DNA of 64,000 nt from Tubulanus polymorphus (Eukaryota > Nemertea > Palaeonemertea > Tubulaniformes > Tubulanidae), in contig NC_134027.1 of assembly GCF_964204645.1 (NCBI RefSeq), positions 19,518,485 through 19,582,484 of the forward strand, read 5' to 3'. Numbering within the stretch: position 1 is the stretch's first letter; each line of letters opens with the position of its first letter. This document shows, in pieces, positions 31,478-59,850 of this stretch. The position numbers and the translations under genes were made by a program. The notes beneath the pieces are model-generated. The model had not been told where the DNA came from and made no database searches. It was given only the letters and a program-made list of their open reading frames with translations.

Positions 31478-31493
31478 TTTTTTTATTATGTAA

Positions 31494-33182: not shown

Positions 33183-33208
33183 TTAATTTTTTTGTTAAAT
33201 AAATGAGT
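33180..33208 (+). promoter_or_regulatory. Conserved T-run plus TAAATG start context (example at MCP)
   Basis: TAATTTTTTTGTTAAATAAATGAG. A T-rich run followed within 4-9 bases by TAAATG fused to the start codon occurs before nearly every Polinton gene in all copies (for example 28590, 28950, 29196, 29638, 31494, and on the minus strand 22541, 42223, 43107 and 62074). Genes with the weaker TATAATAAATGG form (27459, 34485, 39204, 56077) may be a second class. It resembles virus late-promoter/start fusions; the role is inferred. Confidence 0.7.
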
Positions 33209-34452
33209 GGGAGTTATATCAATCCTTCTAAGAATCATAGAATATCTAATGCTATTAAAGCAGAAAGATCACATCATATAATTACTCATAACCCTTCAAA
33301 TATTAATCCCGATGAAACTTTATACGTTAGAATTCCTAGATTAACACAAAATACTTTTTATGTTCCAAATAGTATTTATTTATCAGCTGATATAAAAGTA
33401 ATCGGTAATAATAATAATTATGTTGTCGATAATGTTGGAAGATATTTGATTAAAAAGTTAACAATAAAGATTGGTCCAGAAACAGTTTTCTCATTAGATG
33501 ATTATAATTTATTTATGCACTATAAAGATTTATGGTTAACTAAAGAAAATAGAAATAATATGATATTTCAAGGAATCCAATCAGAAAACCAAAATAAATT
33601 AAGATCAGAAGCTAATAGCGCAATATTAACAAATGATGTAGATAAATTGATAAAAAGTATATATGGAAGCAAATATAAAATTCCATTAGACTTTGAATTG
33701 ATAAATAATAATGCACCTTTATATAAATACGCAATTCAAGAAGATGTTATATTCGAAATAACATTTGCTCCTGTAAATGAAATTGTAATATCTAGCGTTA
33801 ATAAAGATATGAGTTATAAATTATCGAATATATGTTTAGAATATGATACAGTAACTGATGAAAATATTTCAAGTATAATTCAAACTAAATACAATCAAGG
33901 ATTTTCATTATTATATGATTATATTGATAAATTTAAAACTGTAACTATTAATGCAAATGATGAAATAATAAATGAGAATATTAACTTTCCTAGAAGATCT
34001 ATTAAAGGTATATTAATATTTTTTACTATTGGAACGTATACTAATGGCGCAATAAATGTTGATAATTATTATAATCCTGAAATAACAAAAGTAGAAATAA
34101 CTATCGAAGGTATAGCGAATAAAATATTTTGTCAAGGAATGAGAATGATAGATCAATGGGTAGAAATTAAAAAACATTTTATGAATGAAAAAGTAAAATC
34201 ATTTGAAAATTGTAACATTAATCAAATTGATATTATTATACCGGTAATAAATATGCATTATGGTTAGATTTTAGAACAACTGAAGATAACTTATTACATG
34301 GTTCTGGAAAAAAACTACAGAACACTAAAGATGGAATACAATTATTCATGATAAAGAAAAAAGGAATCAAAAATTTTAAAATGCACATTTATATTATATC
34401 TGATGCGCAATTAAATATTGTAAATTCACAATTAGATAGTGTTATGTATTAA
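33203..34452 (+). pseudogene. Major capsid protein (double jelly roll), frameshifted near the end
   Basis: Forms the icosahedral shell in Polinton/adintovirus particles. The N-terminus has YVRIPRLTQNTFYVPNSIYL (about 34) and a VGRYLIKKLTIKIG segment. The middle has an IFEITFAPVNEIVISSV and LSNICLEYD block (about 190-215), typical of the first jelly roll's end. The second half has RRSIKGILIFF (about 273) and VEITIEGIANKIFCQGMRMIDQW (in part at about 300). A 2 bp insertion near 34232 breaks the frame; the original C-terminus continues to 34452. The start is in AAATAAATGAG. No intact copy exists in the window. Confidence 0.88.
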
Positions 34453-34484
34453 AATTGTAACTTTAATAAAAATATATATAATAA

Positions 34485-35432
34485 ATGGAAGGAGGTAAAG
34501 TATATAAACATATTCCATACATCGATACACATGAAAATAATGATGGTTTATATTATGTAATACCTTGTAATATAGCTTTGATATTTGATCCTATTTTTAG
34601 AAATTATAAAACTAAACTGATAGAAATCGATAATAATAAAAGTGGTGTTGTTAATAATAGTGTAATTGATAATAATGTAATACCTACTACTACATCTGTA
34701 ATACCTACTACTACATCTGTAATACCTTCTACATCTGTAATACCTACTACATCTGTAATACCTACTACTACATCTGTAATACCTACTACATCAAATAATG
34801 TAATACCTTCTACATCTAATAATGCAATAATATTAAATGTTAGTGAAAATAGAAATTATTGTGGTTATTGTAATGGTGAATTTTCAAACGCTCCATCAAA
34901 TTGGAATAAACATATGAATACAAATTCACATATTACTAATGTTATAGAACGTGTTGGTTTAAAAGAATTTATAGAACACCCATTTAGATATGTTACAAAG
35001 TTTGTTTCAAATAAAAAAGTAAATGGTAAAGAATTATATGAAGATTTTTTATTAACAACACCTAATAAAGATGAATTAGATTTAACTGATGCTAATGAAA
35101 TATTAGGATCAAACACTGTAAATGAAATATTAGGAGCAAACACTAATAAAGATGATAATGAAAATGATGCCATACACCCACATGATGATATAGTTACAGT
35201 TAAACATATTGATAATAAAGATTCTATAAAACTTAAAGTAGAAAATAATGATAAATTTGATTGGATGAATAAGTTTAAAAATGAAACAACTATTGATGAT
35301 TTGGTAAAAAAGGTGAAAAAGGTGAAAAAAAATTATAAAGATGTTGATGTAGATTCGGTAGAGCATTTAAATATGTTGTTAGCGTCTGATAGTGAAAGTG
35401 ATTCAGAAATTGATTATCTAAAACTCGAATAA
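34485..35432 (+). CDS. C2H2 zinc-finger Polinton protein with Val-Ile-Pro-Thr repeats
   Basis: 315 residues, open. N-terminal 65 residues are unique, followed by a low-complexity VIPTT/SVIPT array (about 65-115) encoded by a minisatellite. Then a finger (YCGYCNGEFSNAPSNWNKHM..SH), and an acidic, Asn-rich C-terminal half. The same gene in C (59900-60795) has a different repeat number and is broken; B lacks it. Last gene of the left arm, converging with the ATPase gene. Probably nucleic-acid binding; the role is unknown. Confidence 0.75.
   Translation: MEGGKVYKHIPYIDTHENNDGLYYVIPCNIALIFDPIFRNYKTKLIEIDNNKSGVVNNSVIDNNVIPTTTSVIPTTTSVIPSTSVIPTTSVIPTTTSVIPTTSNNVIPSTSNNAIILNVSENRNYCGYCNGEFSNAPSNWNKHMNTNSHITNVIERVGLKEFIEHPFRYVTKFVSNKKVNGKELYEDFLLTTPNKDELDLTDANEILGSNTVNEILGANTNKDDNENDAIHPHDDIVTVKHIDNKDSIKLKVENNDKFDWMNKFKNETTIDDLVKKVKKVKKNYKDVDVDSVEHLNMLLASDSESDSEIDYLKLE
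34670..34830 (+). repeat. Coding minisatellite in the zinc-finger gene
   Basis: Imperfect units of 15-24 bp built on GTAATACCTACTACATCT, in frame, giving a Val-Ile-Pro-Thr/Ser-Thr repeat. C has a related but differently sized array at 60465-60605. The TAATACC core also appears, inverted, in the intergenic minisatellite at 35491-35580. Confidence 0.85.
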
Positions 35433-35490
35433 TAAAGGTTGAAAATTGTATAAAATAATAGTAAATAAAAAAAGGGTTTTAATTATTTAA

Positions 35491-35580
35491 GGTATCTAAT
35501 AGGGTATCAGGTATTAGGGTATCAGGTATTAGGGTATCAGGTATTAGGGTATTAGGTATTAGGGTATCTAATACATAGGT
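35491..35580. repeat. Minisatellite at the convergent junction of the two gene arms
   Basis: Copies of a GGTATTAGGGTATCA-like 15 bp unit with variants such as GGTATCTAATAG, between the last plus-strand gene and the ATPase stop. Polinton C has the same unit at the same junction (59745-59850). The site is where the two transcription units meet, so a bidirectional 3'-end or spacer function is possible. Confidence 0.85.
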
Positions 35581-35590
35581 ATACAAATAG

Positions 35591-36202
35591 TTATTTTATA
35601 AATTTATATTCATATGGAAATTGTAATCTCATAAGTAATTTGGAACCTTTATTATTTTTTAATTTATTCATATACTCATCGTGTAATTCAGTAGGTATAA
35701 TTTGATTTTCTTCCAATGATTGTTGCATAGATTTTCTATCTTTGTTGTAGAATAAAACTAGAAATCTTATATTCTCTCTAAAATCTTTCACAATTGAATT
35801 ATATTTCTGATTTAAAACCCAAGTTGTTATCCCAAAATGTCTACCAGAGAAAGCTAAATAACATAACTCACTTTCTCTAATTTTAGAATCATGTAAATTT
35901 GCGCAATCATCAATAATAAATAATGTATTTGATCCTTTATAAATATCTAATGCAATTTTTATACAATTATCTAAATTTTCTTTTACTGTTTTAGGGTCTA
36001 ATATAATAAACTTTTTTATCTTAACTATATCTCTATTATATGTTTTATTCATTTCATAAGTAGGACAGAATAATATTATATTATCAAAATGATTCTTATA
36101 AATAGTTTCTAACAAATCTAATATGAAATGTGTTTTACCACAATTGGTTACTCCAGTAACTAACATATTATGCGGTTCAAATATAAATAAATCTTTATTC
36201 AT
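35591..36202 (-). CDS. Genome-packaging ATPase (A32-like FtsK/HerA superfamily)
   Basis: 203 residues, intact. Walker A GVTNCGKTH (about residues 16-24), a LFCPTYEMNKTY segment, Walker B LFIIDDCANLHDSK (about 95-108) and a FSGRHFGITTWVLNQKYN sensor-like segment (about 120-137). The usual size for Polinton and virophage packaging ATPases is 200-300 residues. The ATG overlaps the integrase stop (RINE end) in an ATAAATGAA context, so the pair is probably translationally or transcriptionally coupled. Pumps element DNA into the capsid by analogy with A32. Confidence 0.92.
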   Translation of the reverse strand: MNKDLFIFEPHNMLVTGVTNCGKTHFILDLLETIYKNHFDNIILFCPTYEMNKTYNRDIVKIKKFIILDPKTVKENLDNCIKIALDIYKGSNTLFIIDDCANLHDSKIRESELCYLAFSGRHFGITTWVLNQKYNSIVKDFRENIRFLVLFYNKDRKSMQQSLEENQIIPTELHDEYMNKLKNNKGSKLLMRLQFPYEYKFIK

Positions 36203-37283
36203 TTATTCTTTTAATTTTACTAGATAAAATCCATTCATTAAATTTATCATCATATCCTTTATATTTCACCAAAGAATACTTTTTTCCTTTAAGAGTTTTT
36301 GTTTTCAATACTTTTTCTATTTTGTATTCTATTTCATCTGGATTTGGTACTAATGATAATTCTTGTTCATAAAAATAACCTAATATTTCTTCATCTTTTA
36401 AATCAAACAATTTATAAACAAATGGTTTAGTTAATATTATCTTTTTAATTTTAAATATTTCTTCTGTAAAATTAGGGGTATAACCTTTATAAAATGTTTT
36501 TCGATATTTAGAAATTCTAACATGTTGTCCTATTTTAAATTTAGGTTCTCCAAAATCATGTGTAACAAATGCTCCATATAAATTATTCCAAACTATTTCT
36601 GAATTTTCTTCTTTTCTAGCTTGTATAGGTTTCATATTTATAGAACTATGTTTAGAATTATTATAACCTTTCATTAAATCATCTAACACATCGATATATT
36701 TATATGTTTCATTAGCAGTAAAATATTTCCACATTCTAGTTTTCAATGTTTTATTAAATCTTTCTATAACAGATGCTTTTTTATCTGAATGTGTTGAAAA
36801 ATATTCTACATCGTTATCAGATAATAGTTTTTTAAAATGTTTGTTATAAAATTCTTTACCTTCATCAAATTGTATCTTATCTGGAATAGCTTCTTTAAAT
36901 ATTAATTTGAAAACATTTGTTACTTCTATACCAGTTTTATTTTTAATCGGGATACTCCATGCGTATCTACTGAATATATCTATAACATTTAGTATCCAAA
37001 AATATCCTTTGTTGTATTCTTCTAAGTTTTTCATATCAATTAAATCTGCTTGCCATTGTTGATCAATATATGAAACCATTACTTTTCTTGTTAAATATTT
37101 TTTATCCATCTTTTTATGAATTTGATATGTGGGTTGATTTTGTAACCATGATTTTAATTCACTATATTTTATTTTTTCTTTATCAGATTTAATTTTATCC
37201 CATAATTCCGAAACACTTGAATATGATACTTCACTTTCTGGGTTATAATATAACTCTCTTAAATATTGTTCTTTTTTCATCAT
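36195..37283 (-). CDS. Retroviral-type integrase with C-terminal chromodomain
   Basis: 362 residues, intact. Catalyses insertion of the linear element, giving the 6 bp target duplications seen here. The rve core includes QADLIDM (first Asp, about 79), IQFDEGKEF (second Asp, about 141) and VIERFNKTLKTRMW (Glu, about 177), keeping the D,D-35-E spacing. A GYNNSKHSSINMKP segment follows, then an SH3-like stretch (FKIGQHVRISKYRK). The end is a chromodomain: YKIEKVLKTKTLKGKKYSLV and KGYDDKFNEWI. The chromodomain may steer insertion to certain chromatin. The copy in C (58042-59127) is also intact. Confidence 0.95.
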   Translation of the reverse strand: MMKKEQYLRELYYNPESEVSYSSVSELWDKIKSDKEKIKYSELKSWLQNQPTYQIHKKMDKKYLTRKVMVSYIDQQWQADLIDMKNLEEYNKGYFWILNVIDIFSRYAWSIPIKNKTGIEVTNVFKLIFKEAIPDKIQFDEGKEFYNKHFKKLLSDNDVEYFSTHSDKKASVIERFNKTLKTRMWKYFTANETYKYIDVLDDLMKGYNNSKHSSINMKPIQARKEENSEIVWNNLYGAFVTHDFGEPKFKIGQHVRISKYRKTFYKGYTPNFTEEIFKIKKIILTKPFVYKLFDLKDEEILGYFYEQELSLVPNPDEIEYKIEKVLKTKTLKGKKYSLVKYKGYDDKFNEWILSSKIKRINE

Positions 37284-37286
37284 ATT

Positions 37287-37631
37287 TTAATCCATTAATA
37301 ATAATTTAGATTTAGTTTCATTTGATTTATTTTCTGGTATAATATGTTTATCATCATCGGAATCATCTTTATCGTCAGATTTGATTTTATATTTATATAT
37401 TACACCAGAGAATATAATAACTGTGATTAACCCAATTGTAATATATAATTTATTATTACTTCCAACATTATAAGAATTAGATGGATTATTATTTGAATCA
37501 ATATCAGATTCATTTATATCAGTTAATTTCTTTTTCTTAGCTTTTTTTAATTCTGAAGATCTTTTACCTAATTCTCTTGCCCATTTAATTTGTTTCTCGG
37601 ATCTAGCTTTTTTCTTAACTCCATCACTCAT
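37287..37631 (-). CDS. Small single-TM Polinton protein (114-type)
   Basis: 114 residues. Basic N-terminus with KARSEKQIKWARELGKRSSELKK in part, a Ser/Asn-rich spacer, one membrane span (LYITIGLITVIIFSGVIY, about 68-85) and an Asp/Lys-rich tail. It overlaps the 200-type gene by 8 bases and ends 3 bases before the integrase start codon, giving a tight four-gene unit (200-type, 114-type, integrase, ATPase). Function unknown. Confidence 0.78.
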   Translation of the reverse strand: MSDGVKKKARSEKQIKWARELGKRSSELKKAKKKKLTDINESDIDSNNNPSNSYNVGSNNKLYITIGLITVIIFSGVIYKYKIKSDDKDDSDDDKHIIPENKSNETKSKLLLMD

Positions 37632-38226
37632 TTATTTTAGTTAATTTTTGTTCTGATTCATTTTCTGTTTCGATGTTTTGTTGTAGTACATCTGTTTCGT
37701 TCTTACCTGATTTATATTCCATAGGCTTGATGTTCGAAAATGTTATGACACCAGTAGAAATTAATGTCATAACCGATCCTAATTGAAATGAAACATATCC
37801 AACCCATTTTTGTAATTCAGTCATAACTAAATAGTCATTTTTCAAATCATTATATAATTTATTTTCATCATCAATTGGTATTAACTGGTTACATAACTTA
37901 GAATAACATTTAACAATACCATCACTTATAGAGTCGTTTATTCTAGCTAATCTTGCCTCTTCATAAATTTTAAAATATTTTATTACTTTATCGGGTTTCA
38001 TAGAGTCTAGTTCTTGAAAAGTTATTATTTTTCCTAAGAAGTCCTTAGATTTCCCGCCAGCAATTAATAATTCAAGATGATGCTTACAATATAAATAGTA
38101 TTCATAATCTATATTGTTATTAACTTGAGCACAATTAGTTGCAACTGTATCTTTATTATCACTTATACCCAAATCATCTAATGTCTTTTCAATATCAATA
38201 CTATTCTTATTAGATTTCTTTGACAT
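37624..38226 (-). CDS. 200-type Polinton protein, possible membrane anchor
   Basis: 200 residues, open. N-terminal polar region, a YYLYCKHHLELLI segment, a helical KYFKIYEEARLARINDSISD region, NDYLVMTELQKW, a hydrophobic stretch (GYVSFQLGSVMTLISTGVITF, about 147-167) and a polar tail. Start context TATAAATG. Conserved in A, B and C. First gene of the 200-114-integrase-ATPase block. No fold recognised. Confidence 0.75.
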   Translation of the reverse strand: MSKKSNKNSIDIEKTLDDLGISDNKDTVATNCAQVNNNIDYEYYLYCKHHLELLIAGGKSKDFLGKIITFQELDSMKPDKVIKYFKIYEEARLARINDSISDGIVKCYSKLCNQLIPIDDENKLYNDLKNDYLVMTELQKWVGYVSFQLGSVMTLISTGVITFSNIKPMEYKSGKNETDVLQQNIETENESEQKLTKINE

Positions 38227-38529
38227 TTATATTAGAGAAAAAAAGCAAAAAAAAATATTATAAGTATTCTTCAAATGATATTAGATAGTTAAAGTTAAAG
38301 AACTCTAGTATTGACTACTGATACTAGCTATTTGAATTTAAAGAATTTCTATTCGGATCTATTCAAAATATAAAGTATTCTCTTTTTGAAAAGAAAATAT
38401 TAAAAATATAACAGAATTCACTAGCAGTTGAAGTTATTGTTTTTTTAATATATTTTATTTGAATTCTATTTGATATCTCACTACTTTTGTTTATCTATTA
38501 GGAGCAGTAGTTATAACTGTCCAGATAAG
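38227..38529. other. Intergenic spacer between 200-type and HNH genes
   Basis: About 300 AT-rich bases, no gene. It contains short ACTAGTATT/AATACTAG-type inverted steps and an ATCTCACTACTTTTG block also present near 10250 in B and 56800 in C. May hold the promoter of the 200-type gene. Confidence 0.5.
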
Positions 38530-39204
38530 TCATTTCGGATCCTTGATATCAAATTCCTCAACATATTGTTCATTCTGTGGGTTACTATTCCACCAATCAA
38601 TAAATTTCCTTGCTTTATTCAACTGTTCCAAATATAATTGTAAATCTAGTTTATTAGATTTGGTTTGATTTTCTTTCTTTTCTAAAGGTCTTAAATTTTT
38701 CCAACCCCAAATAAGTTTTTTATTGTATTCATCATTCATGTTAAATTTAGATATTGGTAACACGTGATCAATGTGGTAATAATCCCCATAATTATCTATA
38801 TTCATTTTATCATCGAATTGAAATATAATCCATGATTTGAGAAATTCATCTGAACAACCCAATAGATTAGATAGTGTTTCTGAATGCGTTTCTTTGTTGA
38901 ATAATTGTGTTAATCTAGACCGTAAACATTGTTTCAATCTAAAATTAAGATCTGTTTGATATCTTTCTCTCATATATTTTGTCATATAATAATTATAATG
39001 TTTTATATTATCTTCTCGATATTGTTTGGTGTATAGTTTAGTACAAGTTTTACAACAATATTGAAAACCATCTTTGCTAATCTTACGCTTACTAAATTCT
39101 GTTAATGATTTATTTAATTCACATTTAGAACATTTCTTGTAATATATGTTTATAACGCCAGTGTTATTTGTAATATTGATAGTTTGTGGTTGTTCTGGTT
39201 CCAT
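38530..39204 (-). CDS. HNH endonuclease with N-terminal zinc ribbon
   Basis: 224 residues, intact. Cys-rich N-terminus (CSKCELNKSLTEFSKR then CCKTC, about 23-55), a helical middle (YMRERYQTDLNFRLKQCLRS) and an HNH core: YHIDHVLPISKF (about 144) and WKNLRPLEKKENQTKSNK (about 166), supplying H, N and metal ligands. The C-terminal tail (WNSNPQNEQYVEEFDIKDPK) recurs fused to another finger protein at 54464-54715. Homing-type or resolution nuclease activity is likely by family; the target is unknown. Start context AATAAATGG. Confidence 0.88.
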   Translation of the reverse strand: MEPEQPQTINITNNTGVINIYYKKCSKCELNKSLTEFSKRKISKDGFQYCCKTCTKLYTKQYREDNIKHYNYYMTKYMRERYQTDLNFRLKQCLRSRLTQLFNKETHSETLSNLLGCSDEFLKSWIIFQFDDKMNIDNYGDYYHIDHVLPISKFNMNDEYNKKLIWGWKNLRPLEKKENQTKSNKLDLQLYLEQLNKARKFIDWWNSNPQNEQYVEEFDIKDPK

Positions 39205-39339
39205 TTATTATACATATTTTTTTACTAAAACTGATTTATTTTTGTTCGAAATCTATGAGCTGCTCTTTTCCGTTCCTTGATCTTTTTCATTCCTCGCCGC
39301 CGTAGTTGATAAATCATTTCGGATCCTTGATATCAAAAT

Positions 39340-39660
39340 CATACAAGCGGCCGGCCATTTATGGCCGGTTTTGCTTAATGCGCATGCGTTAATTATAATT
39401 ATAAATTCATTCTATAAATTATGTAAAATAGAAACGACCGACATAAAATATCAAAACGTGTTCGTATTAGGCAAAACCGCTCTTATTGGAGCGTTTTTGC
39501 TTAATGCGCATGTGTTAAACATAATTATATATTCATTCTATAAATTCTGTAAAATAGAAACAACTGAACATAGAAAATTCAAACGCATTCATGTCTGCGT
39601 CACATGTGTTACATGCGTCACATGCGGCCATTTGTGGCCGGTTTTGCTTAATGCATATGT
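39340..39660. repeat. Array of hairpins with differing but self-complementary stems
   Basis: Three units about 120-135 bp apart. Each has a central hairpin followed by GTTTTGCTTAATGCGCATG or a variant and an AT-rich spacer ending ATAGAAACGACYGA. The inner stems differ yet remain paired: CCGGCCATTTATGGCCGG, CGCTCTTATTGGAGCG, CGGCCATTTGTGGCCG. C has four units at 55555-55955 with GCGCGC..GCGCG and CGCTCCTATAAGAGCG stems. Maintained pairing with changed sequence suggests selection on structure. Confidence 0.82.
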
Positions 39661-40208
39661 GTTAATCATAATAGAAACGACTGAACATAAAAATTCACAA
39701 ATCAGATTTACACAATACATTATACAAGTTGTTCAGTCATTTCTTCTAATACATCATTTGATTTCTATAAATACAATTTATAATTACAAACATTTTTTCA
39801 ATTGCTGGTAAATATTTAACTACATCAACAAATGATAAACTTAATCATTGGAGTCTTAATGTTTTTGAAATTCTTATATAGTTTCTTCGTCGATCTTTTG
39901 GTGATTCTATTGGTTTGATATCCATTGCTGTTGATTCCTCAGTCAGAAAGAGTATCTTGAGTTTCTCTATTGCTTCTTGATGTGTATGACGTTTTATTAA
40001 CCTAAAAGATATTAGCGGTAACTCTAGCAATCTAAAAGATATTCTAAATACGCTTAAATATATCTAAAGGTTTCGTATTTAATAGCCTTAATAACTACAA
40101 CAAACAGTACTTACATTTAGATTTATAATTGTAAACTATAAACTCCTTATTTCGTTTCGAAAGATAGAATATCCTGAGCACAATATTACAGCGTATATCC
40201 ATTTCCGG

Positions 40209-40300
40209 GGTGATTTCTAGAATGAACACGTCGTTGATTATGTCACGTCATCTAGTTCCGGCGCGCCTTTCTAGAATATTCTACACGTTTCTGATTATGA
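40209..40300. promoter_or_regulatory. Heat-shock-element-like and CRE-like sites, duplicated
   Basis: Two units about 54 bp apart. The second holds TTCTAGAATATTC (40269-40281), an exact triple TTCnnGAAnnTTC; the first has TTCTAGAA (40215-40222). Each is followed by GATTATG and CACGTCA or GACGTGT. Further GAAC/TTCTAG steps occur to about 40432. Polinton C repeats the pattern at 54833-54960. By consensus these match HSF and ATF/CRE sites; no expression evidence is available. Confidence 0.55.
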
Positions 40301-40720
40301 CGTGTAATAATGTCTCGTCGTTATAGTAACAACTGTAACAGCTGCGAATTTATAGATTTATTCTATGGCTCTGTACATTGAATGTATATAGGCTCAAATA
40401 GAATCATGTTCTAGTATAAACATCTAGAACAAGCGTGTTGAGACTTGTAAATTATGAGATTTGTGATTCGCTAACGTTCGCCGTATACACAACGCGTTGA
40501 AGTTGAAAAAAAATCAATAATAAAAACATTTAGATCAATGAAATTAATTAACTCTTTACAATTGAAATATAAGCTGGTAACATATGTTTACTAGAGTTAA
40601 TACAACCAACTATATAGCTGAGTATTATCAGGTGTTTATAACGATTCAACGTATTTTTCACTATGTGTTGAGTTCCTTAATTCGATAAATGTCTTTGCTT
40701 TAACCAACTGGACTAAAAAC

Positions 40721-41277
40721 AAATGCGTTCTAGTTTTATTGTGTCTTGCTTTTTGAGATTTATCTATATCGATATTACATGTTGGGCAGTAGTATTTATT
40801 TGCTTCCATTTTAATACTATATTTTTTATTAAAATTGATTTTAGAAGTTCAATGATTTAAATGTTATTCATATATATATGAATATTTTAAGAGTAATAGG
40901 GGTAATGGGCTTTCATATCAAAGGTTTAATGATCGAGTTCATTAATAACATATATTAAAAAACTATAATATATTTTCATAACCGCGTGCATTTCAGTTGA
41001 ATAATAGAATAATTATTATCATTTGAATATATTTGATTATTTGAATTTGTGTATTGTAATTAAATCAATTGGTCGCGGAGCGGAGCGGTAGCGAAGTGGA
41101 GCGACCAATTGATTTAATACAATATGCTTTTTATATTATTGATATCTTAGAATAAATACTTAGTTTTGATATAAAATGCACGCGGTTATGAAAATATATT
41201 ATAGTTTTTTAATATTTTGTTTTTTAATGGGCTCGACCGTTCGACCTTTGGTATGAAAGCCTATTACCCCTATTACT
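40721..41277 (-). repeat. Polinton A right terminal inverted repeat (557 bp)
   Basis: Inverse of 22943-23499. It contains a second PolB start region on the minus strand (ATG at 40809), which runs through the finger for about 29 codons and then leaves the repeat into a decayed frame. The outer 386 bp (40892-41277) is the terminal palindrome, with its loop at 41077-41100. Confidence 0.93.
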
Positions 41278-41283
41278 CCTATA

Positions 41284-42223
41284 CAATAATTTAATCTAAT
41301 ATGTGATTTATCTAAATAATTTTGATATCTTACAATGTTTTCTGGAATCGATCTATTTTTATCATTATGAATTGAATCTTCAAATAATACTTTGAATTGT
41401 TTCTGCGCATCGAATGAAGTGTTATCATTTACAATTATTGGGGATCTTGTTTCAACTTGCGAAACCTAAAATACATATCAAATAAGTTCTAATAGATTGA
41501 TTTATTCTTTGTATTCCAGCTTTAGTAAAACCTTCACTATTTTCTAAAATGAAATTAACCCAACCATTATTGTTTTGTTGTTGTATATTATTATAATATT
41601 TTGGTAATTCATTCCAATTTAGTGTTCTTACATCTGAATTTGTCATTATTTTTCCAAATTCTTTAGTATATAATATTCCTAATCCACCCATTGTTCCAAT
41701 TTTTTGCTCTAAAATCTTTATTTGAATTAATATTAAATTCATTACATATTTTATAAAACTTAGAAAAATTAATATCATTATTCAATTCTTTAAAATATTT
41801 TGAACCTGGTAAAGGACATTCTAATTCATCTAATATTAATTTTATTTGAAAATATGTATGAAATCTAAAGAGTGATAACATCATTGGTAAACTTGGTTTG
41901 TTTAAATGATCATTCCAACTAATTCTACATCCTGTTGTCGCGCAATAAACAGCAAAATTTAATTGGTTCTGCCAATACTTCATATTAGATTTCAATAACC
42001 ATTGTTTTGCCTCATTTAAATTTTTAAAATTAATTGTATACACATGAAATATATTTTCCATCTTTACATGAAAATTATTACTTTCAGTAACATAAATATA
42101 TAAATCAATTAATGAATTTAAAACTTCATTTCTATATGAAATATCTTTATTAAAATCTATTGCTGGAATATAATATTTTATTGATTTATTATATTGGAAA
42201 GCTTTTGGAAAACTATCTACCAT
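41284..42223 (-). pseudogene. 5' part of the 462-type protein gene (Polinton B), split by Polinton A
   Basis: Starts at 42223 in TATAAATGG and matches the A protein from residue 1. A frame break lies near 41705, another near 41470. The segment corresponding to A residues about 180-210 differs. It is cut at 41283 by the Polinton A insertion (target duplication CCTATA at 41278-41283) and resumes at 22936. Confidence 0.88.
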
Positions 42224-44157: not shown

Positions 44158-44790
44158 ATGGATGAGAAGATACCATGTGAAATTTGTGGTGAACTTATCA
44201 GAAAAAGTAATATGGCTCGACATATGAAAAAACATGATGAAAATTATAAACCCCCTAAAATAAACTGCCCAAAATGTAATAAATTATTCTCAAGAAATTA
44301 TGTTAAAAAACATTCAGAGAAGTGCAAAATTAATGGCGCAACAGCTAATGTTGATAGTAACGAAAGAAATAGTAATTCTGTTGAAGTTGAACCTGAAATT
44401 ATTTGGAAAAGACCTTTCTTATTCTATGACAAGGATAATATAAAAGATCATTTCTGCGAGCCTTGTCGAATAAAATATAAGAAAACGTTACCAGATAATA
44501 AAGAAACAGTTGAAAAGTTAGAAAAACAATATAATGAATTAACAAGAAAAACATATTATTGTAAATATTGTAAATTGATTATTACAACAAGTAATTCAAA
44601 TCTACATAATAGAAAAATAAAACATAAAGAAAACGTAAGAAAATACCAAGAGCTTAATGAAGATCTATTACCATTAAATTATAAACAAAAATGCCCACAA
44701 TGTAGTTATGCGACCTTAAGGCAAGAAGGTACTGTGTTATTTTGTAATGAATGTGGATGGCAAAAGAATTTATGGGGTGAAATTATATTT
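44158..44790 (+). CDS. Multi-finger Cys/His protein (Polinton B specific)
   Basis: About 210 residues, reading outward from the penton gene on the opposite strand. Two N-terminal fingers (CEICGELIRKSNMARHMKKH; CPKCNKLFSRNYVKKHSEKC), a CEPCRIKYKK motif, a further finger (YYCKYCKLIITTSNSNLH) and a C-terminal Cys4 ribbon (CPQCSYATLRQEG...CNECGW). The frame stays open to 44838, but from about 44775 it is antisense to the intein, so the true end is lost at a rearrangement junction. A has the LPDR-type gene here instead. Probably nucleic-acid binding. Confidence 0.65.
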
Positions 44791-45438
44791 TATAGCAAAA
44801 TCTTTAGGATTATTTACAAGTATTCTATAAACTGCTGATGATTTCATAACATCCATGATTTTAAATGTTTTATTTGGATAAACTTCTTCACAATATTTCT
44901 TTATTCTTTCTAATAATATCAAATCTTGATTGCATAAATACCAACAATATTTATTACCCCAAACATATTTATACACACCTGCTGAACCATCTTCCATAAA
45001 AAATCCTTTGATAAAATATTCTTTTTCTTCTAATGTTTCAGGTTCTATATTATAAATATTATCAATTATTTCATCAAATGACATATGATTCATTCTTTGG
45101 AAAAATCTTTTATGTAATAATTCATCTCCAATTTTTATATCAGTTGGTTTTATTTCATCGCCATTTCGTTTAATTAAACTATGATCTTCTGTAACATCTA
45201 CAAACCCTAATTTAGTTCTAACTCTATAGATTTTCTTATTTGTTTTATGCCTAATAATATTCTTTAATTTTTTCCATCCATTTCTTTTCCAAACATCCAT
45301 TAAACCATTTATTTGTATTAATTCTTTTTCACCATATGAAATATAAAGTTCATTTTGTTTTGGAATTATTTCTGAAATTCTTCTTATCAATATTTTATCA
45401 TTACATTTTAATAATATTGGGGTGTCAGCTGTTACAGA
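44770..45438 (-). other. Truncated intein with LAGLIDADG motif at the PolB active site
   Basis: Read on the minus strand, PolB proceeds to HIEILYFD and then into SVTADTPILLK, a splicing block A. Block B is GFVDVTEDHSLI (about residue 75), followed by PTDIKIGDELLH and a LAGLIDADG-type dodecapeptide (FIKGFFMEDGSAG, about 140). The second endonuclease motif, the C-terminal His-Asn blocks and the PolB C-terminal extein are missing beyond 44770. Polinton A shows the uninterrupted site (YLDTDS at about 26889). In B two residues of the DTD motif are also missing just before the intein. Truncation means it cannot splice now. Confidence 0.92.
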
Positions 45439-48400
45439 ATCAAAATATAATATTTCAATATGCTTTTCGCCAAAAAGTCTTTTTCAAAATCTGTTGTAGA
45501 TATGGTTCTCTGTTGGGTATTAAAATCTATATATTTTTCTAACCACTTCGATTGATTAAATTCAATATATCTATGTACTTTATTTATTTTCATTCCTTGT
45601 TTTAGATAAAATTTTAACATTCTATAATGAACAATATAATTATATTTATTATTTTGAGTAAGTATTAATTTTTCTGTAAAAACATGATCTTTCAATTTTA
45701 TTTTCTTCTGGTATTCACTTAAATAACTATCATCTACAGTTAAATGTTCTGGGCAATAAGGTAAGTTTCTTGTTTTAAACTTTATATTTTCAGGATATTC
45801 AAAATCAACTGCAAAGAAATAACCAATTGGTGCTTCATCTTTTAAACTCGCAATTGCGCTTTCCCAATCAGTTTTATCACCATTTTCAACTTCTGTTAAT
45901 ATAAAATCTTTATATGGTTGAGGTTGCATCATTGCCCAACCATATAAATTATTGGCGTCAATATATAATAATTTATATTCATCATTTGCTTTAAAATACC
46001 TATCTCCCATAACACCACTAATTCCACCTCTAATTGATTTTTCAAATAATAAAACCATATCTGGTTCTTTTAATAAATTTAATTCTACGTTAGTATATTT
46101 CAAACCACATTGCCAGGTTAAACCAGGACTAGAGTAGCAATAACAAGGATCAACATTAAAATGATTCAAATTAACTTCTCAAAATTTTTCAAATATGTCA
46201 GCTAATATCATAACATCTGATTTTAAGTAAAGATCAACTAATTCACCATGATTTTCTATCTTAAAGTGATTCCAAATATTCAATGTTCTATTATATACTT
46301 CATCTTTAACATATTCATGTTTTAATTCATCATAGAAATGTTCTTTTAATAGTTCAGTTATGTTAAAATCATTATGTGATTTATAAAATGAATAAGGAAT
46401 TGCACCTTTATATCTTAATAATTTAAAATCTTGTTCATTTGGATAATAATATCGAGTTATAACAAAATCATTATCAACTAAACTTTTTGATAAATTATCT
46501 AATGAACTTGCTAGAAATCTATAAGAATCTAAAAATCTAATGCAACCAAATTGAAATGAAATATAATTTTCAGATGTTTTAGCTTTATCATATTTTCTTA
46601 CATTTACGCCATTCATAGCAGTATATTCTTCTATTTCTTGATTAATTGCGCCCAATTTTCCCGATAATTGTTTTATAAATAGATGGGTATCATAGCCTGA
46701 TAAATTATGAAATAATATTGGAACGAAATTTACTTTTTTAGCTCGTAAATTACAATCTTCATGAGCAGCTCCACGATATTTTGAATTTAAATGATCATGA
46801 TCACTAACTTTTTTATCAAATGAATAAAAAGGTTTTTCACAATAACAACAATGGGTTGCATAATTAAAATCAATTTCATCTTCTTTTGTCATAACTATTC
46901 TTTTATTTTTGTTTAATAATTCTGCAAAATCACTTTCAAATTCAATAATTTTGTTACAAAAATTATTAACTACATCTTCACCTCTAAAAGAAATATATTG
47001 ACTTTCATATAATTCAGGATGATTTGATTTTATATAAATTCCATAAGCAGCAGCTCTTTGATGAACTTTTTTGATTGTGTTTATAATTGGTGGATCTTGA
47101 ATTATATCTTCATTTAATTCATTTCCTTTATCCATTGATTTTAATAATTGCTTTTTGTTATATATTTCTTTTCTATCTTGATCAGTTAATTCTTTATTCA
47201 ACGATTCAAAATCCCTACAAATTACAAATGGAACAATATTCTTAAATTTATGATTAGTAAATTTCAATTTATAATCTTTTTCTGTTGGCATTATTAATTT
47301 ACGTTTTTTTATGTTTTAATAATGTATTCTCAGTCATAAATTTAGATTAACATTTTCTACATAGATAAATTTTATTATGGTGATCACTTTCTGTTCTAAA
47401 GAATAAATCAATTTGTTTTAACCACATATAATGTTCATTTTCATCTTTTTTGTAATATAACAAATCTATAGCATTTTCATCATCATAATATTCTGTTAAA
47501 TATAAAGCTTCCAATGTATAATCTTTAATATTTTCACCTTTTGTATTTGGTTATTGCATTAATTCGAATACATTTATTTTTAAATTATTATTTTTTTCTA
47601 TTTTGGGCATCATTTTTATAGTTACTGGATATTGATCAATTTTATATAATGTTTCATATTTCCGGTAATTTGTTATTCTAAAACTATGCGTAATATTTTC
47701 TGTTTGGTGTAAGCAACTAATAATTGACCATAGAAAACATGTATTATCTTCATTTTGAATATTTATTACTGCTTTTGTTGTAAATGGTAATTTAATATAA
47801 GATGATGCTTTAATATCCTTTTCTGTTGTAAAGTTTGAATCATTTTTAAACATTTTATTACTTTTTGATGTTTTATTTCTTTTTGTATTATAAACATTTA
47901 AATCTAAATATATAATTTCATTCAATGTTAAGCCAGAACCCTCAAAATATCTTTCTTCAATATGACGTTTAAATTCATTAAATATTTTTTCTAACTTCTC
48001 TTTTATTTGTGTTTTTGAAATTATTTCTTCAGAGTGTGTTTGAATATTATAATCCATTTTTTCTTCTGACTTTATAAAACTTACTTTCCCAGAGATACTA
48101 ATATTCAACATCTGTTATCAAATCTAGTATTTTTTCTATTATTTCATTAAATTTACTATAATCTTCTATTGTTGTTCCTTTAAAATCTAAATATAATAGC
48201 TGCAGGACCAATTTTACTATGTAATGTTTCTAAAATTTCAATTGTATCTTTTATTTCTAGTGAATCAATATAATTTCTAACATTTTCCATGTAAGGTTTA
48301 TTTGAAATGGATTTAGTTTTTGAAGTTGGTTTTTTTAATTTTCAGGTTTATCATCAAAATAATCTTTTCCTAAAACATTATTAATCAAATTTTGATGGTG

Positions 48401-48828: not shown

Positions 48829-50159
48829 CTACTCGAATACTTCTAGGATTACTGCAATAGCACGACGTTTTGCAATGGCTGATGGAAGAGGTTCATTTCC
48901 ATGAGTAACATTATCATCATCAATTTGTTCTTCATCACCTTCATTTAAATTATCTTCTACTGAGTCACTACTTAACAAACTGATATTGTGCAAGACAAAA
49001 CAACTTATTATAAAATCTACCAGTCTGTTTGGGTCATGCATATCAATATATTTAAGTCGGCGCAAACGACCTTTCAATAAGGCAAAGCATTTTCGATCCT
49101 CATTCGGGTAGAACTGTGTAGAAAGTTGTAGTTCTTTTCTAATTTTTCTAGTCCACCGGTATCTCGGAATGGTGTTAGTATGACATCACTCAATTCATAG
49201 GCCGAGTCTGCCAATAAATGGCTATTTTCTGGAAAAAGCTTACGTCGCTTCTCAAGATCTTCACAAGCAAGTCCAAGTTTGGAGTTTTTGAGCACTCGGG
49301 AATCATGTGTCGAACCTGGCCATCCAACATAGACATACGTGAAAATCATCCGATGATCACATATGGCGGCAACATTTATCGAATGGTATTTCTTACGGTT
49401 AAGAAACGTCTCTGGGTTCTTTACCGGTGTCTTAATAGGAATGTGTGTACCATCCAGAGCACCAATTACCTTTTAAAATTAAGAAGATAACGTTTTATAA
49501 ACACAATTGGTCAATATGATTATTCTACAAAATCAGAGTGGTATTAGACGATACGACCTACCTTTGGAAATTGTCGCATTTGCTCAAATCCACGAAAAAC
49601 TTGATAAATATTGTCACCAGTCGGCCACTTAATAAATTTCTTCAGCAGCTTGTTGTTCATGACTTGGCTGATGGTGGCTGGAAGAATAGACAATATGTAG
49701 CAAGTCATATTTTAATTTTTTCTGCATTTATCTCTTGATCAATATCAACTCTTAAGGTGTCGGCTACAGTTCTCTGAAAAATAATCAAACAACGAACTCA
49801 CCAATTATCTTAAAGACTGAAGCTTCACAAACTCCAAATACGTCAGCCACTCTTATCAACGGGTCTTGAGTAGCACAATAATAAACATAAATCAACATTA
49901 GTTTTTCGTACGATATACAAGAGTTTCTGTCAGCAGCGAGTATAGGGATGAGATGGTCTTTCAGGACATCAAAGGTCGTTCTGCTAATTCTAAACCGAGC
50001 CTTGAAATCGTCCGGTGTATATCTACTGATAATTGCAGACAGAGAGTTTTGAATTCGAGGTATTTTTTTTTCTTTTAGATTTTTGAGTTCTTCAGTAACC
50101 TTAAATTCGTCAATTACGTCGTCCTCGAATAATTTTCTTTTTCGACAATGGTATACCAT
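48829..50159 (-). pseudogene. PIF/Harbinger transposase (DDE nuclease), three exons, frameshifted
   Basis: Likely exons 50159-49802, 49677-49562 and 49469-48829, each with GT donor and AG acceptor. Exon 1 holds the helical N-terminus (FRISRTTFDVLKDHL; KLMLIYVYYCATQD). Exon 2 reads a FIKWPTGDNIYQVFRGFEQM segment. Exon 3 has VIGALDGTHIPI (first Asp), GWPGSTHDSRVLKNS (second Asp), LLADSAYEL and STRMRIENAL (Glu). A one-base deletion near 49077 breaks the frame directly after the catalytic Glu. An acidic tail follows. It would cut and join element ends together with the Myb-like protein at 6375-7987. Confidence 0.88.
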
Positions 50160-51873: not shown

Positions 51874-53981
51874 TTAATCGTCACACTCTAGGGAAACCAG
51901 CTTATCGATAGGACGAGTTATAACGCGATTGCCCTTAGTTTTGACTAAAACGCTTCGAACTAGACCATCATTTCCTGGGAAGACCTGCATAACGCGCCCC
52001 AACGGCCAGAAATTCCTAGGAGTGGCATGATCGGCCACTAGGACTATGTCGCCTATACGCAAATTCCGTTTCGCATCGAACCCTTTATACCGGGCTTGCG
52101 CACGTAAAAGACTGGATTCTTTCACTTGATGATCCTTCGTCAGATCTCGCACGTCTCGAGAAAAGCTCTCGCTCTGAACGCTTTTCAGAATCAACGTTTC
52201 GGCATTCCTAAGCTCAGCCACGGTAATGTGCTTAGGTTTCGTACATGTAGTAGCATTTCGATCCAAACCTCGTCTACGGCTGATGACAGCTTCTTTGAGC
52301 GACTTAACGAACCTTTCGACCCAAGCAACGACGACTTTAACTTTATACCAGGTCGAGAATTTGTTTACGACTTCCATTATAACCGACGGAGTCGCACGTT
52401 GCTCGGCAATCTGTCCGAACGATTTAAGCCCAGAATTTTTCAGCTCGGGATCGTCGACCAAAAACGCGAGATCCGGAGATACGTTCGGCCATTTCGGCTT
52501 TTATCCTTTCGAAGAAACTCCGGTCCAAATAACCAATTCGACGTGCAGGTCATCTGGTGAGCAGGAAACCCCCTGGAAACGTCATAAGCAGGGTTAGACT
52601 TGCCATCGATAAATTGCCACTGCGATGGACTCGACGCGTCGTGGATTACCGCCAACTTATTAGAAACGAATGTCTTGAATCTTTTATCGCGATTCCTGAT
52701 ATATTTAATGACGGTAGTAAAAACGGAATCATCGACCGGTAATTCTAAATCATTCTTTATCGCTTTATCGATATTCACGGACACCACGGCAGCAGACAAT
52801 TCGAGTCTGGGTATCGATACAGTTTTCAATGGAGCCAGTCACGATTTACAAGTCATGAGCGCAGTGTGTATTTCGCCGAGTTCATTTTCGACCCTCATAT
52901 AGGACACCGTGCCGTAACCAACTTCGGACGCATCGGAAAAATGATGAAGTTGTGTATTCACTACACGACCGAAACCAGGCGGAAATAAACAACGCGGTAT
53001 CTTTATTTCCTCGAGCAACGAAATATCCTCCAACCACGCGTTCCATTTATCTACATAGACGAGTGGGATAGGGTCATCCCAATTGAGCCCTAGCTTACAC
53101 AGCTCTTGGCCAATAATCTTTCCGGGAAGCATTATCGGCGCCACGAAACCAAGAGGATCGTATATCGAGCGAGTCACCGACAGCAGACCGCGGCGAGTTA
53201 ACGGGCGAGGTTTCAGTTTGACTTTAAACGTGAAAACATCATTCTCCATATCCCATAAACATCCAAGCGCTCGCTCGCTGGGCAGATCATTTGAGCCTAG
53301 CTCTCTGAGACTAGCTGCTCTCTCCTCGGGTGGAATAGCCTCAAGTAACGCTCTGGAATTCGACGCAAATTTCGTGAGATTAAACCTGCCCTTTCGTAAT
53401 AGAGTCTTTACGTTTTTCGCAGTTCTTATTGTGTCGTGTTCATCGTCTAATGATTTCAAGCAATCGTCGACGTAGAAGTCTTTCCTCACGGTATCAAACG
53501 TTGTCGTGTCAAAATCATCTTTATTGTCTTCGGCCGTTTTTTTTAACGCGTAATTACATACACATGGAGAAGAGATCGCACCGAAAATATGCACGTTCAT
53601 GCGATACGGGACGGGTTCAATAGCCAGGTCTCCATCTTGCCACCGCAAGAACCTCATGGCGTCACGATCCCTGCTCGGCACTCTGACTTGGTGAAACATA
53701 TTTTCAATGTCAGCCATAAATGCAAATCGGCCTTGACGGAAACGCATCAGGACCCCCACCAAAGCGTTGGTGAGGTCAGGACCCTGGATAAAGCACATCA
53801 TTCAGTGACACATCCCTGTACTTAGCGGAACAATCATACACCACACGCAGTTTCCCAGGTTTCTGCGGATGGAAAACTGGATGATGCGGTAAGTACCAGA
53901 TCGTCGAATCTGGAGATTCATCACTTAAACGATTCGGAACGACTTCGGCGAAACTACGTTCGACTAATTTATTAATATAGT
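51874..53981 (-). pseudogene. BEL/Pao pol copy lacking the integrase core, cut by Polinton C
   Basis: Different BEL family from 14723-21232. From 53981 down: WYLPHHPVFHPQKPGKLRVV, a frame break near 53795, an open RT block 53801-52839 with HIFGAISSPCVCNYALKK and YVDDCLK, RNase H HHFSDASEVGYGT, a TGA at about 52842, then SIPRLELSAAV to WLFGPEFLR and a frame break near 52450. In 52461-51874 the linker (ITVAELRNAE) passes straight into the DUF5641-like tail (IGDIVLVADHATPRNFWPLGR). The HHCC and DDE integrase domains are gone. The 5' half was displaced by Polinton C at 53982. Confidence 0.85.
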
Positions 53982-57692: not shown

Positions 57693-58035
57693 TGATGTTA
57701 AGAAAAAGGCTAGATCCGAGAAACAAATTAAATGGGCAAGAGAATTAGGTAAAAGATCTTCAGAATTAAAAAAAAGCTAAGAAAAAGAAATTAACTGATA
57801 TAAATGAATCACAGACTTTATCTGATAATGATTCAAATAATAATCCATCTGATTCTTCTAATGCTGGAAGTAATTATAAATTATATATTACAATTGGATC
57901 GGTGTAATATATAAATCAAAATTCAAATCTGATTATAACAATAATGATTCCGATGATAATAAACCTATTATACCAGAAAATAAGTCAAATCATAAAACCA
58001 TTGAAACTAATTCTAAATTATTATTAATGGATTAA
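57685..58035 (+). pseudogene. 114-type small TM protein (Polinton C), broken
   Basis: Starts at 57685 and reads KARSEKQIKWARELGKRSS; an extra A at about 57770-57777 then shifts the frame, and a deletion near 57900 removes most of the membrane segment. The original stop is at 58033-58035, just before the integrase ATG. Confidence 0.78.
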
Positions 58036-58041
58036 AATAAG

Positions 58042-59127
58042 ATGAAAAAAGAACAATATTTAAGAGAGTTATATTATAACCCAGAGAGTGAAGTATCATA
58101 TTCTAACGTTTTAGAATTATGGAATAAAATTAAATCTGATAATGGTGGTATAAAATATAGTGAATTGAAATCATGGTTACAAAATCAACCAACATATCAA
58201 ATCCACAAGAAAATGGATAAAACTTATTTAACAAGAAAAGTTATGGTTTCATATATCGATCAACAATGGCAAGCAGATTTAATTGACATGAAGAACTTAG
58301 AAGAATACAACAAAGGATATTTCTGGATACTGAATGTTATAGACATATTCAGTAGATACGCATTGTCAATTCCAATCAAAAATAAAACTGGTATAGAAGT
58401 GACAAATGCTTTTAAATCTATATTTAAAGAAGCTATTCCAGATAAGATACAATTTGATGAAGGTAAGGAATTTTATAACAAACATTTCAAAAAACTATTA
58501 TCTGATAACGATGTAGATTATTTTTCAACACTCTCAGATAAAAAAGCATCTATTATAGAAAGGTTTAATAAAACATTGAAAACTAGAATGTGGAAATATT
58601 TTACTGCTAATGAAACATATATTTATATCGATGTGTTAGATGATTTGGTGAAAGGTTATAATAATTCTAAACATAGTTCTATAAATATGAAACCTATACA
58701 AGCTAGAAAAGAAGATAATTCAGAAATAGTTTGGAATATTTTATATGGAGCGTTTGTTACACATGATTTCGGAGAACCAAAATTTAAAATTGGACAACAC
58801 GTAAGAATATCTAAATATAGAAAAACATTTTATAAAGGTTATACCCCTAATTTTACAGAAGAAATATTCAAGATTAAAAAGATAATATTAACTAAACCAT
58901 TTGTTTATAAATTAGAAGATATAAAAGATGAAGAAATATTAGGTTATTTCTATGAACAAGAATTATCACTTGTACCAAATCCAGATGAAATAGAATACAA
59001 AATAGAAAAAGTATTGAAAACAAAAACTCTTGAAGGAAGAAAGTATTCTTTGGTTAAATATAAAGGATACGATGATAAATTTAATGAATGGATTTTATCT
59101 AGTAAAATTAAAAGAATAAATGAATAA
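58042..59127 (+). CDS. Integrase with chromodomain (Polinton C)
   Basis: 361 residues, intact. All landmarks of 36195-37283 are kept: QADLIDM, IQFDEGKEF, IIERFNKTLKTRMW and the C-terminal chromodomain (YKIEKVLKTKT; KGYDDKFNEW). Few substitutions separate it from A (for example YALSIP for YAWSIP and HDLEDIKDEE-type changes near 293). Overlaps the ATPase start by 8 bases. Confidence 0.94.
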   Translation: MKKEQYLRELYYNPESEVSYSNVLELWNKIKSDNGGIKYSELKSWLQNQPTYQIHKKMDKTYLTRKVMVSYIDQQWQADLIDMKNLEEYNKGYFWILNVIDIFSRYALSIPIKNKTGIEVTNAFKSIFKEAIPDKIQFDEGKEFYNKHFKKLLSDNDVDYFSTLSDKKASIIERFNKTLKTRMWKYFTANETYIYIDVLDDLVKGYNNSKHSSINMKPIQARKEDNSEIVWNILYGAFVTHDFGEPKFKIGQHVRISKYRKTFYKGYTPNFTEEIFKIKKIILTKPFVYKLEDIKDEEILGYFYEQELSLVPNPDEIEYKIEKVLKTKTLEGRKYSLVKYKGYDDKFNEWILSSKIKRINE

Positions 59128-59731
59128 AGATTTATTGATATTTGAACCGCATAATATGTTAGTTACTGGTGTAACAAACTGTGGTAAAACACATTTCATA
59201 TTAGACTTGTTAGAAACTATTTATAAAAATCATTTTGATAATATAATATTATTTTGTCCTACTTATGAAATGAATAAAACATATAATAGAGATATAGTTA
59301 AGATAAAAAAGTTTATTATATTAGATCCTAAAACAGTAAAAGAAAATTTAGATAATTGTATAAAAATAGCAATTGATACTTATAAAGGATCAAATACATT
59401 ATTCATTATAGATGATTGCGCAAATTTACATGATTCAAAAGTTAGAGAAAGTGAGTTATGTTATCTAGCTTTCTCTGGAAGACATTTCGGGATAACAACA
59501 TGGGTTTTAAATCAAAAATATAATTCAATTGTTAAAGACTTTAGGGAGAATATAAGATTTCTAGTTTTATTTTATAACAAAGATAGAAAATCTATGCAAC
59601 AATCATTAGAAGAAAATCAAATTATACCTACTGAATTACATGATGAATATATGAATAAATTAAAGAATAATAAAGGTTCAAAATTATTACTGAGACTACA
59701 ATTTCCCTATGAATATAAATTTATAAAATAA
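59120..59731 (+). CDS. Packaging ATPase (Polinton C)
   Basis: 203 residues, intact and nearly identical to 35591-36202, including GVTNCGKTH and LFIIDDCANLHDSK. High conservation beside decayed neighbours suggests either recent insertion or chance survival; synonymous and non-synonymous counts would separate these. Confidence 0.92.
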   Translation: MNKDLLIFEPHNMLVTGVTNCGKTHFILDLLETIYKNHFDNIILFCPTYEMNKTYNRDIVKIKKFIILDPKTVKENLDNCIKIAIDTYKGSNTLFIIDDCANLHDSKVRESELCYLAFSGRHFGITTWVLNQKYNSIVKDFRENIRFLVLFYNKDRKSMQQSLEENQIIPTELHDEYMNKLKNNKGSKLLLRLQFPYEYKFIK

Positions 59732-59744
59732 CTATTTATATATC

Positions 59745-59850
59745 TATGTATTAGATACCCTATTAGATACCCTAATACCTGATACCCCATTAGATACCCT
59801 AATACCTGATACCCTAATACCTGATACCCTATTAGATACCTTAAATACTT
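59745..59850. repeat. Convergent-junction minisatellite, Polinton C
   Basis: Units TACCCTAATACCTGA and TAGATACCCTAT, the inverse of those at 35491-35580, in a different number and order. Located between the ATPase stop and the zinc-finger gene stop. Confidence 0.85.

Follow-up and report, generated by a model that had tools for sequence, protein, structure and literature searches.

What interrupts the active site of a Polinton DNA polymerase in the genome of the nemertean Tubulanus polymorphus? The question is raised by a 64,000-nucleotide stretch of contig NC_134027.1 (assembly GCF_964204645.1, positions 19,518,485 to 19,582,484; hereafter the window), part of a 27.8-Mb contig in a 267.8-Mb assembly, in which the polymerase of one Polinton (element B) runs into unrelated sequence at its YxDTDS motif. 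Putting the probability at roughly 0.86, we read the insert as belonging to a class-1 intein that carries a LAGLIDADG homing endonuclease with two motifs and is placed at YxD/TDS of the protein-primed family B DNA polymerase (pPolB) of one high-copy animal Polinton lineage. YxD/TDS is the most conserved motif of protein-primed DNA polymerase. From the sequences we infer protein splicing, cutting and homing: Ser1 would attack the peptide bond preceding it, the chain would pass to Thr+1 of the extein and the terminal Asn would cyclise, with the polymerase halves joined and the DTD motif restored, and the freed endonuclease could then cut an empty site, into which repair would copy the intein.

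We confirmed the minus-strand open reading frame (ORF) at 44770-45483, which reads HIEILYFD/SVTADTPILLK and also contains VTEDHSLI and GFFMEDGSAG, the intein starting directly after the first Asp of YxDTDS. All parts lie on the minus strand: the end of the N-extein (KRLFGEKHIEILYFD, 45439-45483), splicing block A (SVTADTPILLK, led by Ser1, 45406-45438), splicing block B (VTEDHSLI, with its Thr and His, 45172-45195) and the first LAGLIDADG motif (FIKGFFMEDGSAG, 44977-45015). S1 and the T, D, H, S and L of block B are unvaried across a 10-row alignment; where the window copy has E in FFMEDGSAG, the 7 other copies read have G. Sequence, profile and homologue matches delimit the remaining N-terminal part of the intein, residues 1-219 of 355 counted from S1, at 44782-45438. 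A search against intein profiles, set beforehand as a test, gave a match to NCBIfam intein_Nterm (TIGR01445; E 6.9e-08, 33.4 bits) above the curated cut-off of 24.5; Pfam Intein_splicing (PF14890) scored 25.7 bits (1.1e-05), below its cut-off of 35.8, and is above cut-off in the related proteins P0002 and P0003 and below it in this genome. The top PDB sequence match is the intein PI-PkoII (E 4.1e-05). Furthermore, at E<=1e-3 the 219-residue piece hits every one of the 120 listed intein homologues (up to 287 bits); the best score from 100 shuffled versions of it was 13.3 bits.

Two deletions, located by comparison with other copies in the genome, explain the present state of this copy. The first, of 274 bp relative to locus L006, has its joint, with a 7-bp overlap, at 45472-45478 (minus strand; compared with L006, L002 and L008); it removed a segment that we take to be polymerase motif B and shifted the frame. 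The second, of 1,426 bp relative to L006, has its joint at 44781/44782 (minus strand) and removed the last 136 intein residues and the C-extein, so that only the first LAGLIDADG motif is left and the second is gone. Because the two deletions remove motif B, the intein end and the C-extein, the window copy is a dead, decayed fragment of an intein family. An earlier note on this DNA had proposed a truncated intein at the Polinton PolB active site, with blocks A and B and a LAGLIDADG motif, next to a deletion of motif B; the block A junction, the intein_Nterm match, the 219 of 355 residues left and full copies elsewhere in the genome bear this out. The extent it gave, 44770-45438, holds for 44782-45438 and fails for 44770-44781, which lies beyond the deletion joint. 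Its claim that two DTD residues had been deleted beside the intein start is not correct, as the intein separates D from TDS, and the part beginning with TDS was lost along with the C-extein in the separate 1,426-bp deletion. Decay after loss of function, as it had suggested, fits the window copy and does not fit the family overall, which is under purifying selection according to the substitution ratios given below.

The search for full-length inteins elsewhere in the genome, which the note had proposed, found whole inserts with C-terminal Asn and Thr+1 in other copies. With the window piece as query there were 502 first-look candidates, and all 150 that were scored match at 88-100% identity; the matched part is free of stops in 104 of them by hand count, and in 8 the open frame extends over 1,686-1,690 residues. 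The insert is open end to end in four of the seven other loci first fetched (L002, L005, L006 and L008, all with the C-terminal N/T); L003 has one stop, and L004 and L007 have a frameshift near the end. The full insert has 355 residues from Ser1 to Asn, followed by TDS or TDA, and sits as YFD/intein/TDS between the D and the T of YxDTDS of a family B polymerase. Full copies carry two LAGLIDADG motifs with catalytic Asp, at residues 142 (FIKGFFMGDG) and 253 (WFFIGFYAADG), and match LAGLIDADG_3 above cut-off. Allowing <=3 mismatches, the occupied-junction pattern was found at 315 genome sites (reversed control 0) and the empty-site pattern at 657 (control 0), a rough ratio, since the patterns are unequal in length and degeneracy. 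The genome contains hundreds of intact or decayed copies of the intein, some of them in open full-length frames with exact junctions. A 126-residue query across the Polinton A site gave 1,613 first-look candidates; all 150 scored align over at least residues 3-125, and the 30 fetched are all empty sites. The genome carries a very heavy Polinton load, as seen from the 1,613 candidates for one polymerase segment and from the 657 empty and 315 occupied junctions.

Next we consider where the intein came from. It is matched by 289 proteins at E<=1e-3, and we describe the best 120 of these. Among them are ten whole carriers in protein-primed polymerases, P0001 (63% identity) and P0002-P0009 and P0011 (41-49%), together with two partial carriers (P0060 and P0073). 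By BLAST, nine of the ten match pieces of the Polinton A polymerase; P0005 has no match at 1e-3 and has PF03175. P0001 reaches 62.3 bits with PF03175 and is 58-60% identical to the Polinton A piece over two stretches and 57% and 37% over two others. The database entry for P0007 gives a bacterial symbiont of the clam Ctena as its source; it possibly represents DNA of the host. The other listed relatives lie mostly in PF00136/PF03104 polymerases, whose carriers we take for large DNA viruses, and in type II topoisomerases. P0023 is named as a viral metagenome, and the IMG/VR search returned 3 loci with the intein query and 38 with alignment A1, of which the two longest matches were typed and are PF00136 polymerases with an intein (L042 and L043; 32 and 35%), while the 36 untyped may include a Polinton-type carrier. 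The inteins of topoisomerase II (P0079, P0082, P0092-P0096, P0102, P0105, P0107 and P0111) form one clade among the PolB inteins and appear to reflect a move into a different gene. P0085, a Chloropicon primus protein named DNA polymerase delta catalytic subunit and encoded by either a cellular gene or viral DNA, also carries a related intein, at the same polymerase site.

The insertion site is identical in the polymerase rows aligned, and the pPolB inteins form one clade among PolB inteins (SH-like approximate likelihood ratio test, SH-aLRT, 100; 113-row tree, from which 9 rows with coverage <300 were dropped). In a careful 53-row tree this clade stands beside the large-virus-type PolB inteins with support of 100/99; both trees are midpoint-rooted, and their rows are without archaeal pol-c inteins. 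These trees group the intein with pol-c inteins and show its kinship with the large-virus-type PolB inteins, and the link to large DNA viruses made in the earlier note stands on the shared insertion site and the neighbouring clades. The carriers, by contrast with their inteins, are scattered: in a 112-row tree of the ~262 polymerase residues before the site, the distribution of the 7 carriers takes 6 changes to explain, of which starred branches force at least 5, and 59 of 500 shuffles were as low as 6, so that carriers are no more clustered than chance (21 rows were filtered out, and carriers P0005-P0009 and P0011 are absent from this tree). Sister pairs with and without the intein are L006 with intein-free P0121 (99) and P0002 with intein-free P0135 (99).

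One intein clade with scattered presence is the pattern that a mobile intein gives, with repeated precise loss as the alternative. We tentatively propose that a homing intein has been spreading among animal Polinton polymerases and between Polintons and large DNA viruses, and that the scattered presence, together with the hypervariable, weakly linked flanks of the C-terminal junction (see below), may be footprints of repeated homing and gene conversion among co-resident copies; we hold this as a possibility that falls well short of even odds. Slightly behind it, and itself doubtful, comes a single entry into an ancestral Polinton pPolB followed by inheritance, in which the scatter would reflect many precise losses without homing. 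The single pPolB clade agrees with such an entry, as do the similar identities to the window lineage (63% for the P0001 intein, 58-60% for its extein pieces) and the one occupied lineage in this genome. It is harder to reconcile with the close pairs P0002/P0135 and L006/P0121, with P0005, whose intein is nested in the clade although its polymerase has no BLAST match to the Polinton A pieces at 1e-3, and with the exact deletion that would be required to lose an insert precisely from an essential motif.

Within the genome, one branch separates 36 distinct occupied from 30 empty copies in a tree of the N-extein, and one branch separates 25 occupied from 30 empty copies in a tree of the C-extein, the empty copies having been sampled by similarity to Polinton A. 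The C-extein context of the occupied lineage has 231 exact matches with the Asn codon and 8 with GAT; of the latter, three are taken for Asn-to-Asp mutants, having an intein start about 1.1 kb away, one (L018) is genuinely empty and four are ambiguous. The intein is therefore tied to one Polinton lineage in this genome and close to fixed in it (231 versus at most 5), so that its copy number is explained by multiplication with the element and not by recent homing into the other lineage. The empty L018 is itself a mosaic, with a C-extein like that of the intein lineage and an N-extein that groups with the other lineage.

The intein copies recombine, as seen from mosaic blocks common to different copies in the endonuclease/C-splicing stretch, by 1,271 of 1,770 pairs of sites there showing four gametes and by r2 falling from 0.50 (<=15 nt) to 0.05 (>250 nt). 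Synonymous substitution rates (dS) of 0.18-0.29 in the endonuclease and C-splicing parts exceed those of the other parts (0.08-0.10). Endonuclease diversity as a special sign was rejected, as the extein stretch from -1490 to -1190 is similarly diverse (0.08-0.12, 31 copies). At the C-terminal junction, diversity reaches 0.49-0.70 at nt -9 to -3, where the median of 12-nt windows is 0.03 (22 copies); the hypervariable block comprises the last nine intein bases and the first nine C-extein bases, flanking the unvaried Asn codon. Association across the junction is weak (mutual information 0.80, against 0.68 on average after shuffling; 28 of 2,000 shuffles reached that value). We also rejected weak linkage as a scar unique to homing, since at least 3 places inside the endonuclease are equally weakly linked.

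We then asked whether the insert still behaves as an intein. The copies aligned for this purpose were 22, out of 38 occupied loci of which 36 are distinct, 11 without an alignable C-junction and 3 with rearranged flanks having been dropped. Pooled pairwise ratios of nonsynonymous to synonymous rates (dN/dS) were 0.131 for the N-extein, 0.154 for the N-splicing part, 0.237 for the endonuclease, 0.237 for the C-splicing part and 0.217 for the C-extein, and, in the same order, 0.158, 0.120, 0.247, 0.288 and 0.183 in the 9 copies with an unshifted intein frame (two with one stop); the pairs share ancestry, so these values are descriptive, and all are far below 1. Such low ratios across intein and exteins indicate that the insert has evolved as a functioning intein. 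Neither the Asn codon nor the first two bases of Thr+1 show any variation in the 22, a set that leaves out the copies that lost a recognisable junction (the 11 of 36). The variety at the splice point was read from 94 of 100 listed junctions (6 dropped; 239 matches in all) with a pattern that itself demands Asn/Asp and Thr-Asp, so that conservation of these residues is taken from the 22-copy alignment: the intein ends in CFN (34), AKN (15), QKN (14), AVN (10), AFN (8), CLN (5) or others (8), followed by TDA (55), TDS (37) or TDG (2).

Several observations weigh against a working, homing intein. A stop lies within the matched part in 46 of the 150 scored copies, and recent homing into the neighbouring lineage was looked for in both extein trees and was not found. 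The penultimate His is present in none of the 94 junctions (F 43, K 31, V 12, L 6, R 1, A 1), and the block F position that is usually His is Thr in most copies; of the C-terminal His-Asn block that the earlier note expected somewhere in the family, the Asn is therefore kept and the His is missing here, though 7 of the 10 related protein-primed polymerases retain His-Asn. These facts, with the many broken copies and the 657 empty junctions in the same genome, would fit a splicing-dead relic, the noncanonical C-terminus blocking splicing and the lineage having multiplied as a passenger, on polymerase borrowed from Polintons that lack the intein. We consider this unlikely. Against it, dN/dS in the N-splicing part is as low as in the N-extein (0.12-0.15 versus 0.13-0.16), the C-extein behind the intein is also constrained (0.18-0.22), and Asn and Thr+1 are retained in 22 of 22 copies, a count that leaves out the 11 of 36 whose junction could not be aligned. 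Moreover, a penultimate His is usual in inteins, not universal, and the M. jannaschii PEP synthase intein reportedly has a penultimate Phe and splices. That the insert is another animal Hint domain (Hedgehog or bacterial intein-like, BIL) or an assembly contaminant is contradicted by the results and extremely improbable.

Returning to the intein reading, the structure model of the homologue P0011 places residues 99-431 on PI-PkoII 1-537, in a Hint fold closed by both ends; the insert is accordingly assigned to the Hint/intein fold family, the model being that of P0011 and not of this genome's copy. In the comparison with this homologue, PI-PkoII, TliVMA and PI-SceI, inteins of archaeal and yeast proteins, show 16-20% identity. 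The inteins of PF00136/PF03104 polymerases from metagenomes and IMG/VR (P0010, P0013-P0017, P0020-P0025 and others; L042 and L043) share the site at 30-41% identity, and several end GFPLIVKN/TDS; they differ in polymerase class and form a separate clade. Those of the other protein-primed polymerases (P0001-P0009 and P0011) share both clade and site at 41-63% identity and differ in the His-Asn kept in most of them. Nuclease insertions in Polinton pPolBs are said to include HNH and VSR domains. One report states that Polinton pPolBs contain homing endonuclease domains and suggests intein invasions (PMC11071308, citing Jeong 2023); these insertions resemble ours in their host polymerases and suggested origin, whereas the present insert has the two splicing halves with exact splice residues, and its LAGLIDADG enzyme sits at motif C. 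The Mimivirus PolB intein, a pol-c allele (PMC549080), is alike in its YGD/TDS site, Ser1, LAGLIDADG endonuclease and length (351 versus 355 residues); its host is a non-protein-primed PolB of an amoeba virus, whereas the intein described here resides in a protein-primed polymerase, is present many times in animal-type chromosomes and lacks the penultimate His. The literature searched contained no description of a splicing intein in either a Polinton or an animal genome, most subscription papers lying outside that search, which does not imply absence in print.

The fragment lies among other Polinton copies in the window. The N-extein upstream of it consists of what read as pieces of a Polinton protein-primed polymerase, in two ORFs with a broken frame (45484-47315, minus strand), the piece at 46179-47315 scoring 25.3 bits (8.7e-06) with PF03175, slightly below the 25.8 required. 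In the neighbouring Polinton A, whose polymerase is split into two ORFs, the site is empty, with an uninterrupted YLDTDS (26711-27088, plus strand). An adjoining element has a Polinton-type packaging ATPase (Pox_A32, A32-like) and an rve integrase above Pfam cut-offs (35591-37286, minus strand), neither of which was seen in the truncated element B. Polinton copies are packed head to head (31031-41462 and 41278-64000), with long inverted pairs, for example 35557-37330 with 57992-59765 (1,774 nt, 93%). Beside them lie Pao-type retrotransposons and a DDE_Tnp_4 transposase, presumably Harbinger-like (15296-19057, 49074-49472 and 52839-53801). Together with three 7tm_6 matches of the odorant-receptor type and with TTAGG arrays in two places, these transposons would by themselves suggest an insect-like animal; a 7tm_6 ORF used as query had no homologue at E<=1e-3, and the assembly yielded no COX1. 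A 224-residue ORF at 38530-39204 (minus strand) resembles an HNH endonuclease by eye, with no Pfam match at 1e-3.

If the intein is indeed a spreading, homing one, the hundreds of inteins in the chromosomes of one animal would form a population under selection. Hundreds of copies in animal-type chromosomes stand against the statements, in a survey (PMC5784728) and a review (PMC8529194), that inteins are absent from metazoan genomes. The carrier, the Polinton, is thought to move between hosts and may offer a path by which inteins of large DNA viruses reach animals. The family would provide a multi-copy natural system in which the spread and decay of an intein can be followed inside one genome, and its varied penultimate residues may make these inteins of use for splicing studies.
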